NCBI RefSeq assembly: GCF_900604955.1
Contig: NZ_UWPE01000001.1
Coordinates: forward strand, 620,001-684,000
Length of the DNA stretch: 64,000 nucleotides
Source of the DNA: Neoactinobaculum massilliense
Lineage (GTDB): Bacteria > Actinomycetota > Actinomycetes > Actinomycetales > Actinomycetaceae
Reading direction: 5' to 3'
Part shown: in pieces, positions 3,519-29,952 of the stretch
Layout: each line of letters opens with the position of its first letter
Position numbering within the stretch: the stretch's first letter is position 1
Notes under the pieces: model-generated
The model's database searches: none
What the model was told of the DNA's origin: nothing
Seen by the model: only the letters and a program-made list of their open reading frames with translations
Translations under genes and position numbers: made by a program

Positions 3519-4292
3519 TCACGCGTCCCACTCTGACTGCCCGTCGCGTGCTCCCGTGTCTTCTTCAGGCGTGGCGCGAATCATGAGGGGCCCCAGCGGT
3601 TCGGCCTGCTCGGCGACCACCGCGCGACGCCGCAGCAGCGTGAGTAGAGCGAGGAATCGCGCCACCACCGTTGCCGTAGTCGGCGCATCACTACAGAGCT
3701 CTGAGAAGCTGAGCGTGCCGCGGGTGAGGCGTTCCTCCACAACACGCATCTCTTGCTCAACCGGAACCTCAGCAAAATGCAGATGGCTGATCTCTACCTG
3801 GGGCTCCGAGGTATCGCGCGCAAATGCGGTGGCAGCCAACAGCGCTAAATCCCCAACGGTGAGACCCAGGCGCACGGCCGGGAGCGCATCCAGCAGGCGC
3901 TCCTCCACCGGCACATCCCGCCCAAACGCGCGTGACGCTAGGCGCGTTCGGAGGTCGCCCGCTACCTCCTTGAACGCCTTGTACTGCAACAGCTTGGCGA
4001 ACAGGAGATCGCGTTCCTCGAGTAGTTCTGCGTCCTCGCTGTCCTCCGTATGCCCGGGAAGCAGCCTGGCTGCCTTCAACGCCAGCAGAGTGGAGGCCAC
4101 CACCACAAATTCGCTCATCTGATCCAGATTCGCACCCTCGCGGGCACGCACAAAATCGATGAACTCATCCGTGACCGCGGCCAGCGCCACCTCGGTGACG
4201 TCCAGCCTTTTCTTGGCGATCATGGAAAGCAGCACGGAGAATGGCCCGGAGAAAACATCCAGGTCCACCTCGAAATCCTGCCTGTCCGCCAT
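3519..4292 (-). CDS. scpA: Segregation and condensation protein ScpA
   Basis: ScpA is the kleisin that bridges the Smc heads in the Smc-ScpAB complex. The 257-residue protein starts with the conserved LDVFSGPFSVLLSMI segment, has the central LATKLLQYK-like helix (LLFAKLLQYKAFKEVA, near residues 96-111) and a C-terminal winged helix. The ATG lies three bases after the parA stop, so parA and scpA are co-translated. About 70 bases separate scpA from scpB. Length and motifs are normal. Confidence 0.95.
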   Translation of the reverse strand: MADRQDFEVDLDVFSGPFSVLLSMIAKKRLDVTEVALAAVTDEFIDFVRAREGANLDQMSEFVVVASTLLALKAARLLPGHTEDSEDAELLEERDLLFAKLLQYKAFKEVAGDLRTRLASRAFGRDVPVEERLLDALPAVRLGLTVGDLALLAATAFARDTSEPQVEISHLHFAEVPVEQEMRVVEERLTRGTLSFSELCSDAPTTATVVARFLALLTLLRRRAVVAEQAEPLGPLMIRATPEEDTGARDGQSEWDA

Positions 4293-26689: not shown

Positions 26690-27712
26690 CTACTTCTCCG
26701 TGGAGCGCTGCTTAAGCCACGACGCCACAACCGTAATCACCAGGACCACCATGATGACCGCCAGTGAACTGAGCGGGCTAAACGCGGGGATAACCGTCAG
26801 CCAGCCGTAGGCATGGCATGCCTCGACCACCAGTTTCAGGCCGATGAAACCGAGGATAACGGCGAGTCCGTAATGCAGGTACACGAGACGGTTGAGCAGT
26901 CCATCCACCAGGAAGAACATTTGCCGAAGCCCCATGAGCGCGAATGCGTTGGCCGCGAAAATGATGAGCGGCTGCTGGGTGAGGCCAAAGGAGGCCGGGA
27001 TGGAATCGAGGGCGAACATGAGATCCGCGCCGCCGATCGCCATGATGCAGAGAATGTAGGGGGTGAGCTCTTTCCGCCCCGTCGCCGGGTTGAGGGTGCG
27101 CGCACTGTCGTCGGTAAAGTGGTCGGCCACCGGGTAAAAACGGCGCACCAGCTTTACAAAACCGTTCTCGTTGTGCGTTGTTTCTTCGGTTTCCTCCTCC
27201 TCGCCGGTACCCTCCCGCGCCTGCTTGATGGCCGTGTAAATAAGGAAAGCAGCGAAGATAAAGAAGACCCAGGAGAAGCGGGCAATGAGCGCGGCGCCGG
27301 CCAGAATGAACACCAGGCGGAGCAGGAGCGCGATAATGATGCCCCAGAACAGCACCTTTTGTTCATATTTCCGGGGCACCGCGAAGGAGCCCATGATGAT
27401 AATGAACACGAAAATGTTGTCCACGGACAGCGAAAGCTCCGTGAAGTAGGACGAGTAGAACTGGACGCCAAATTCGGGAGCATGCTGCCACATCAGATAC
27501 AGGCCCAGTACCAGCGCCAACGCCACGTAGAATCCGAGCCAGCCGGCGCTTTCCTTCATGGACGGTTCGTGCGGCTTACGCACGTGCGATACCAGATCAA
27601 ATCCAAGCAGACCGATCACCACAACGGCCAGGATGCCCCACTCAAGAGGATGCACCGCCATTTGGGCGGCCGACGCCGCGGACACAGTGCCCGCCATAAG
27701 TACAGAGTTCAA
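26690..27712 (-). CDS. TerC-family membrane protein, Mn2+-riboswitch controlled
   Basis: A 340-residue integral membrane protein of the TerC/Alx family with about nine hydrophobic segments. The two family hallmarks with membrane acidic residues are present: LSVDNIFVFIIIMGSF near residue 95 and GGADLMFALDSIPA near residue 230. An acidic loop (EGTGEEEETEE) lies in the middle. TerC/Alx relatives handle Mn2+ efflux or metallation of exported proteins, and a yybP-ykoY riboswitch in the leader supports a manganese role here. The start is a TTG with GGAGG five bases upstream; the next ATG, five codons in, has no ribosome-binding site. It lies between uvrB and uvrA but has its own control. Confidence 0.9.
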   Translation of the reverse strand: MNSVLMAGTVSAASAAQMAVHPLEWGILAVVVIGLLGFDLVSHVRKPHEPSMKESAGWLGFYVALALVLGLYLMWQHAPEFGVQFYSSYFTELSLSVDNIFVFIIIMGSFAVPRKYEQKVLFWGIIIALLLRLVFILAGAALIARFSWVFFIFAAFLIYTAIKQAREGTGEEEETEETTHNENGFVKLVRRFYPVADHFTDDSARTLNPATGRKELTPYILCIMAIGGADLMFALDSIPASFGLTQQPLIIFAANAFALMGLRQMFFLVDGLLNRLVYLHYGLAVILGFIGLKLVVEACHAYGWLTVIPAFSPLSSLAVIMVVLVITVVASWLKQRSTEK

Positions 27713-27717
27713 GAGAT

Positions 27718-27742
27718 CCTCCGGTTGCTAATAGACCGGAGG
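27718..27742 (-). promoter_or_regulatory. Anti-Shine-Dalgarno hairpin of the terC leader
   Basis: On the minus strand CCTCCGGT (27742-27735) is perfectly complementary to ACCGGAGG (27725-27718), which contains the ribosome-binding site of the terC-family gene. The loop is nine bases. The same CCTCCGG is the 3' arm of riboswitch helix P1, so the two structures exclude each other. Confidence 0.8.
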
Positions 27743-27819
27743 TCTTCTCCGCCCCGTGGGCGATCCGCCCGGGCAGAGCCGTGATGACGAACGAATACTT
27801 ATGGAGTACTCCCCTCCGG
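27736..27819 (-). promoter_or_regulatory. yybP-ykoY manganese riboswitch aptamer
   Basis: The minus-strand leader contains CCGGAGG followed by the hallmark GGGGAGTA, and closes with AAGACC followed by CCTCCGG. The outer CCGGAGG/CCTCCGG arms form a 7-bp P1 helix. The GGGGAGUA and AAGACC elements match the conserved internal loops of the yybP-ykoY family, which binds Mn2+ and precedes alx/terC and mntP genes. Between them lies a GC-rich helical part (GGGCGGA/CGCCC). Recognition rests on motif and context, not on a covariance model. Confidence 0.85.
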
Positions 27820-27873
27820 AGGCGAGTCTATCCGCCCGGAGCTACGGATCACCTGGATGTGAGCAATTTCCGG

Positions 27874-29952
27874 CTACTTCTGCGCCTGCTGGGAGTGCCA
27901 CAGCTCCGATTTAAGATCCTTAATCTCATCGCGGTAGCGGGCAGCGAGCTCGAATTGAAGGTGATCAGACGCGGCGTGCATTTGTGCTTCCAGGTCCTCG
28001 ATCATCTTGCGCAGCTCGGCCCCGCCTTTGGCACGTGCAATCTCCGCCGCCGACGCGCGCCCCTTCGCGCTGTCCGGCTCCTGCCGGTAGCCGCCCTCCA
28101 GGAGCGTTTCCGTGTCCACGTCCTCCCGCGCCAGCATGTCCGTGACATCCGCGATCTTCTTGCGAAGTGGTTGCGGATCGATGCCGTGTTCCTTGTTGTA
28201 GGCGATTTGAATTTCACGACGCCGGTTTGTCTCGTCGATAGCCTGCTTCATGTTGGGGGTGATCGTGTCCCCGTACATGTGCACCTCTCCGGACACGTTT
28301 CGGGCCGCGCGGCCAATGGTCTGGATGAGCGAGGTGGTGGAACGCAAAAAGCCCTGCTTATCCGCGTCCAGAATCGCAACGAGCGACACCTCCGGGAGGT
28401 CCAGACCCTCACGAAGCAGATTGATGCCCACCAGAACGTCAAACTCGCCGAGTCGCAGCTCACGCAGCAATTCCACGCGCCGCAGGGTTTCGACGTCGGA
28501 ATGCATGTACTCCACCCGTACCCCGCGGTCCGCGAGGTAGTCCGTGAGGTCCTCGGCCATCTTCTTCGTGAGCGTGGTGACCAGGACGCGCTCGTTCTTC
28601 TCCGTTCGCTGACGGATCTCCTCCAGTAGATCGTCGATCTGGTGCTCGGTGGGTTTGACCTTGATGAGCGGATCCACCAGACCGGTGGGGCGGATAATCT
28701 GTTCCACATAGCCATCCGAACGCTCGCGCTCGTAATTGCCGGGCGTAGCGGACATGTAGACGGTCTGCCCCACGCGCGCCTCGAATTCGGCAAATTTCAG
28801 GGGACGGTTATCCATGGCGGAGGGCAGGCGGAACCCGTACTCGACGAGTGTGCGCTTGCGGGACATATCGCCCTCATACATGGCCCCAATTTGCGGCACG
28901 GTCACGTGGGACTCATCAAGAATGAGCAGGAAATCATCCGGGAAGTAATCCAGTAGCGTGTTTGGCGGCGTGCCCGGCCCGCGCCCGTCAATGTGCCGCG
29001 AATAGTTCTCGATGCCCGAGCACGTGCCAATATTGCGCATCATCTCCAGGTCATAGGTGGTGCGCATCTCCAAGCGCTGCGCCTCAAGGAGCTTGTTCTC
29101 ACTGCGCAATTCCGCCAGGCGCCCATCGAGCTCCTCCTCGATGGAATGGATGGCGCGTTCCATGCGCTCGGGGCCGGCAATGTAGTGCGACGCCGGGAAG
29201 ATGTGGGCCGTTTCCACCCGGTCTATTACCTCCCCCGTCAGGGGATGCAGGGTGGAGAGCGAATCTATTTCGTCCCCGAAGAACTCAATCCGAATGGCCA
29301 GCTCCTCATAAACGGGGATGATTTCCACCGTGTCCCCGCGCACCCGGAATGTGCCGCGAGTGAAGGCAATGTCATTGCGCGTGTACTGCATCCCCACGAA
29401 GGTGCGCAGTAGTTCATCCCGGTCCACCCGGTCCCCCACGGTGAGCTGGACCATTCGGTCCACGTACTCCTGCGGCGTGCCCAAACCATAGATGCAGGAA
29501 ACCGAGGCCACCACCACCGTGTCTCTGCGCGTCAGCAGCGAGTTTGTGGCCGAATGCCGCAGCCGCTCCACCTCGTCATTGATCGATGAATCTTTCTCAA
29601 TGAAGGTGTCCGTTTGCGGTACGTAGGCTTCCGGCTGGTAGTAGTCGTAGTAGGACACGAAGTACTCCACCGCATTGTGTGGGAGTAGCTCGCGGAATTC
29701 TGCCGCCATCTGCGCGGCCAGTGTTTTATTCGGTTCAATAATGAGCGTGGGGCGCTGCACCTGCTCCACCAGCCAGGCGGCCGTGGCGGATTTGCCGGTG
29801 CCCGTGGCACCCAGGAGCACAATGTCCTTCTCACCGTTGTTCAGGCGTTCGGTGAGTTCTTTGATGGCACGCGGCTGATCGCCGGACGGGGTGTAGTCCG
29901 TGATTACTTCGAAGGGGTTTTCCGCGCGCCGAATGTGAGTCTCGAGGGCCAT
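27874..29952 (-). CDS. uvrB: Excinuclease ABC subunit B
   Basis: UvrB is the helicase-like core of nucleotide excision repair that verifies damage and recruits UvrC. The 692-residue protein has the Walker [11 protein letters not shown] near residue 43, the beta-hairpin [20 protein letters not shown] near residue 92, helicase motifs with DESH, and a C-terminal UVR motif that binds UvrC. Two ATGs are possible (29961 and 29952). The second has TACGAT seven bases upstream and fits the leaderless pattern; no Shine-Dalgarno is seen for either. I see no LexA box here, unlike uvrA. Confidence 0.96.

Follow-up and report, generated by a model that had tools for sequence, protein, structure and literature searches.

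A leader RNA that very probably acts as a manganese switch on the ribosome-binding site of terC in Neoactinobaculum massilliense

In Neoactinobaculum massilliense a leader of about 105 nt lies on the minus strand between uvrB, which stops near position 27874, and a gene of the terC/alx family, after which uvrA comes next. Positions are those of the window, by which we mean the whole 64,000-nucleotide stretch of DNA that was analysed. The placing of the gene in the terC/alx family, made in a preliminary description of this DNA, is borne out by its matches to TIGR03718 and PF03741 (Table 1). Read 5' to 3', the first half of the leader runs CCGGAGG GGAGUA CUCC AUAAGUA UUCGU UCGUCAUCAC GGC UCU GCC CGG GCGGA, and the second half continues UC GCCC ACG GGGC GGAG AAGA CCUCCGGU, followed by 9 nt and then by ACCGGAGG AUCUC UUG, so that the Shine-Dalgarno (SD) region ACCGGAGG stands 5 nt 5' of the TTG start at 27712. 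Neither an intrinsic terminator nor a sigma-70 promoter was found near the leader. Two complementarities stand out on the minus strand: the arms of a helix, P1 (Table 1), and an 8-nt perfect complement between CCTCCGGT (27742-27735) and the SD region (27725-27718). Among the 32 window genes with an SD-like start, terC alone (1 of 32) has, within 60 nt upstream, an 8-nt stretch perfectly complementary to its SD region, which points to more than chance; the comparative evidence given below is stronger. The coordinates and complementarities of both elements had been given correctly in the preliminary description. Its spelling of the flanks as CCGGAGG-GGGGAGTA and AAGACC-CCTCCGG had the arms right and repeated the GG and CC that neighbouring elements have in common; in the DNA these flanks read CCGGAGGGGAGTA and AAGACCTCCGG.

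Table 1. Parts of the terC leader and the gene downstream (window positions; percentages and invariance refer to the alignment of 87 leaders).
Feature	Position	Strand	Remarks
P1 (P1.1) 5' arm CCGGAGG	27813..27819	-	7 Watson-Crick pairs with CCTCCGG (27736-27742); P1 paired in 96% of cells; 4 pairs changed on both sides (87 leaders)
L1 loop 5' strand GGAGUA	27807..27812	-	invariant in 87/87 leaders; equals RF00080 consensus GGGGAGUA
P1.2 5' arm CUCC	27803..27806	-	partner of 27747-27750; leaders differ by compensatory U-A/C-G changes
P3.1 5' arm UUCGU	27791..27795	-	pairs with 27764-27768 (two G-U); two-sided changes in all 5 pairs
L3 loop 5' strand UCGUCAUCAC	27781..27790	-	GUCA the same in 87/87, with C, A and C beside it almost constant; corresponds to UCGUCAUUACG in E. 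coli alx
P3.2 hairpin GGC-UCU-GCC	27772..27780	-	covarying; 87% of cells paired
P3.1 3' arm GCGGA	27764..27768	-	partner of P3.1 5' arm 27791..27795
P4 hairpin GCCC-ACG-GGGC	27751..27761	-	weakest helix; about 71% of cells paired
P1.2 3' arm GGAG	27747..27750	-	covariation in 87 leaders
L1 loop 3' strand AAGA (most relatives GAGA)	27743..27746	-	AGA invariant in 87/87
Switching strand CCUCCGGU (P1 3' arm and anti-SD strand)	27735..27742	-	complementarity, covariation, fold
terC SD region ACCGGAGG	27718..27725	-	8-bp complement of switching strand
terC/alx-family gene	26690..27712	-	340 aa, TTG start; TIGR03718 'R_switched_Alx' 342.6 bits (cut-off 246.4); PF03741 TerC

From the sequence and its comparison with relatives, the leader consists of two loop-bearing stems, P1.1-L1-P1.2 and P3.1-L3-P3.2, and the hairpin P4. 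No P2 helix or four-way junction is present, a linker of 4-10 nt joining P1.2 to P3.1 in 87/87 leaders, and the junction is thus three-way rather than four-way. Key to this architecture is an alignment of 87 leaders, which was made with a covariance model, was therefore fitted to the proposed structure and favours it; standard pairs occupy 86% of its cells compared with 69% in shuffles, and two-sided changes were seen in 369 cells, whereas shuffles gave 133 and slid controls no more than 57. Covariation extends to every helix. Because the alignment is structure-fitted, the weight rests on the size of the gap to these controls. The bases that never vary in the 87 leaders are GGAGUA and AGA (the two L1 strands) and GUCA (L3), and these are the loops that form the metal site in the yybP-ykoY riboswitch class. 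A minimum-energy fold of the single sequence was also considered for the aptamer; its P3/P4 region differs from the conserved one and it was hence distrusted.

A key challenge in assigning the leader to a family is that the Rfam 15 model RF00080 (cut-off 45 bits) gave no match in the window, either at the gathering threshold or at E<5, and none in the whole genome. This was the outcome that the preliminary description had named as telling against its reading, and together with the absence of P2 and the short L3 (CGUCANNAC vs the RF00080 consensus CGUCAACAUAC) it does point against our main interpretation. However, in control scans of E. coli K-12 the same model failed to report the alx leader and scored mntP at 41.6 bits, below the cut-off, although both are reported manganese-responsive members of the yybP-ykoY family (PMC9603457). 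The negative result therefore reflects how far the model reaches, not whether the leader belongs to the class, and as a check on the assignment it is uninformative and refutes nothing. Scanning the window, relatives and the E. coli controls with Rfam 15, under permissive thresholds as well as the gathering one, likewise gave no useful signal for this subclass of leaders. At the two E. coli control loci (L123 and L124) the current RF00080 structure line was seen to show no P1 helix.

We built a covariance model, R1, exclusively from 32 actinobacterial terC leaders. Its score in the window (78.6 bits, E 8e-20) follows by construction, the leader being one of the 32 training sequences. R1 also recovers the alx leader of E. 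coli, at 31.1 bits (E 8e-8), and three coriobacterial RF00080 elements (L031, L033 and L038), at E 2e-6 to 1e-5, with the alignments running through the full length of the model; mntP was not found by R1 in E. coli. In an older Rfam release, the Corynebacterium glutamicum terC leader scored 49 bits against RF00080, and its 5' UTR has been seen by RNA-seq (PMC3890552). These matches, with the older score for C. glutamicum, argue for membership of the yybP-ykoY class, as the preliminary description had proposed. Besides this homology to experimentally supported members, features shared with the class are the L1 (GGGGAGUA and AGA) and L3 (GUCA..) loops, a manganese-homeostasis gene downstream, and a P1 switch helix in competition with a downstream regulatory helix. 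Within the class the terC leader is of an alx-like type, with no P2, a short L3 and three junction helices. Lack of a P2 helix or four-way junction does not strictly set it outside the class, given that alx aligns in the same way and that a three-way junction has been reported for the Streptococcus pneumoniae mgtA element (PMC9495176).

P1 and the anti-SD helix need the same strand and are therefore mutually exclusive. In the free fold the SD is fully paired, with a value of -13.9 kcal/mol for the anti-SD hairpin, so that the default state is OFF; when the aptamer was imposed as a constraint on the fold, a weak partner for the SD was nonetheless present downstream. The anti-SD helix is paired in 90% of cells and shows two-sided changes in 19 cells compared with 4.1 in shuffles. 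In several lineages all three strands have changed together, reading ACAAGG / CCUUGUG / CACAAGG in one leader (L157) and CGAAGG / CCUUCGG / CCGAAGG in two others (L094 and L122). A swap test that used the minor sequence classes gave a clear result for P1; for the anti-SD helix the result was clear in some lineages (L030, L094, L122, L134, L156, L157 and L160) and only slight on average, a probable reason being that ribosome binding also preserves GGAGG. Anti-SD pairing was weak or absent in a few relatives (L011, L023, L062 and L159). Pairing, covariation and these co-changes make the coupling between P1 and the anti-SD helix visible in evolution, which supports the earlier proposal of two mutually exclusive helices built on a shared strand.

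We consider it highly likely that the leader (27718-27822, minus strand) is a manganese riboswitch of the yybP-ykoY type that turns terC translation on, and it would very probably do so by hiding or freeing the ribosome-binding site. Ligand binding, choice of metal and regulation in N. massilliense are inferred here from characterised relatives. In the solved element of Xanthomonas oryzae, L1 docks with L3 when Mn2+ binds and P1.1 becomes more stable, an effect that is lost on mutation of the metal-contacting adenosine (PMC6754395). By analogy with the structurally solved members, Mn2+ would bridge L1 and L3, dock the two arms and stabilise P1, which would then capture CCUCCGG, release the SD and switch terC on. 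Without Mn2+, CCUCCGGU would pair with ACCGGAGG and terC would be off, with Rho possibly adding to the repression once translation is uncoupled. TerC/Alx would then deal with the excess manganese. The ON-with-Mn2+ logic of the preliminary description is supported by the comparative evidence.

The contribution of Rho could be larger, with the leader acting mainly on transcription by controlling Rho-dependent termination and the SD helix being secondary. We regard this as unlikely. It would fit the lack of an intrinsic terminator at the terC leader and the E. coli mntP riboswitch region, a site of Rho-dependent termination that is partly relieved by manganese; however, the Rho effects in E. coli are explained in that study by translation being off (PMC11647493), and in our leaders it is the SD that pairs downstream, and in several lineages it has co-evolved with the 3' arm of P1. 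It is distinctly improbable, in our view, that the same RNA architecture responds chiefly to alkaline pH or to a divalent ion other than Mn2+, for example Ca2+. Of the characterised relatives that R1 found, the closest is E. coli alx, for which a ligand-free response to pH by way of pausing has been described (PMC3874183), and according to a review the mgtA element of S. pneumoniae has a higher affinity for Ca2+ than for Mn2+ (PMC9495176). Against this, the L1 and L3 metal-site loops are invariant in 87/87 leaders, the gene belongs to the metal-handling TerC/Alx family, and pH acts on alx jointly with manganese, the alx element having later been described as responding to the two together (PMC9603457). 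By analogy with alx, pH may serve as a co-signal at the terC leader. That the leader is merely a ligand-free anti-SD hairpin lowering terC translation, with the conserved RNA upstream being something else, is scarcely credible, since the hairpin, strong as it is by itself (-13.9 kcal/mol), shares its strand with P1, and P1, P1.2, P3 and the invariant L1 and L3 loops are conserved and covarying.

The element before terC is widely distributed. A simple pattern identified the leader at 28 of the first 30 terC loci retrieved, with that of the window among them, and it is also present in named Actinotignum, Actinomyces, Corynebacterium and Ruania records. R1 matches 192 of 297 Actinomycetes genomes (E<=0.01), and among 21 Actinomycetes compared it found 20, whereas RF00080 gave one weak partial match. 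The gene just downstream is terC for 30/30 of the best R1 matches, for 19/20 in a further set, and for 14/20 in a set drawn mostly from genomes with more than one match; one member of that set (L144) is a weak partial match at a contig end. The layout is thus typical throughout Actinomycetes, and the earlier wording of an "unusually compact" switch overstated its singularity. We found no dedicated study of the actinobacterial element in the open-access literature.

At four loci (L132, L138, L139 and L164) the element precedes a non-terC gene for an uncharacterised protein with an N-terminus like MxKxSRLxxxASxALDK; the L132 protein had no Pfam or NCBIfam match, and we regard this gene as a candidate manganese-regulated gene. 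At L129 the R1 match lies just 5' of a cluster with a gene for a V/A-type ATP synthase subunit D (PF01813), and at L136 it precedes a small lipoprotein gene with the NCBIfam name 'bacteriophage spanin2 family'. Ruania albidiflava (L063) carries two copies of the element, at 2868-2993 and 4024-4149 and hence 1.2 kb apart, each copy apparently standing in front of one of two terC-like genes in tandem, and in another genome (G009) two terC genes are adjacent.

Together these results give Actinomycetes a class-wide, testable, putative manganese switch before terC that is overlooked by present Rfam annotation, and a negative Rfam 15 result for the yybP-ykoY family is not to be taken as absence. They also describe a simple three-strand platform for translational control, in which one strand chooses the aptamer or the ribosome-binding site. 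A further-reaching and rather doubtful proposal is that the terC leaders of Actinomycetes form a distinct alx-like subclass of Mn2+ riboswitches, spread across the class and invisible to the present Rfam model, which may differ from the long-L3 type in metal preference or pH response; the traits that would set it apart are the lack of P2, the short L3, and a P1 arm exchanged directly with the SD.

Among known systems, the E. coli alx leader shares with the terC leader the L1 sequence GGGGAGUA, a short L3 (CGUCAUUACG), the 3' strand GUGAGACC, and, in the R1 alignment, a linker rather than a P2 hairpin between P1.2 and P3.1. It too stands before an alx/terC gene and is subject to translational control, which is predicted for the terC leader. 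The two differ in that the platform of alx is longer, depends on pausing and includes hairpins C and D, whereas in the terC leader the P1 3' arm is itself the anti-SD strand. The RF00080 elements, including the Lactococcus lactis and X. oryzae structures, resemble the terC leader in L1, L3, the P1 switch helix and a downstream strand that competes with P1; the terC leader differs in having no P2, a shorter L3 and no reportable Rfam 15 score, and where the competing strand of Coriobacteriia such as L031 is a terminator arm, here it is the SD. The terC leader of C. glutamicum (cg2157), known to us from PMC3890552 alone, precedes the same gene in the same phylum, and other Corynebacterium terC leaders carry the element. 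The class is a known one, previously recognised in Corynebacterium, of which the N. massilliense leader is another member.
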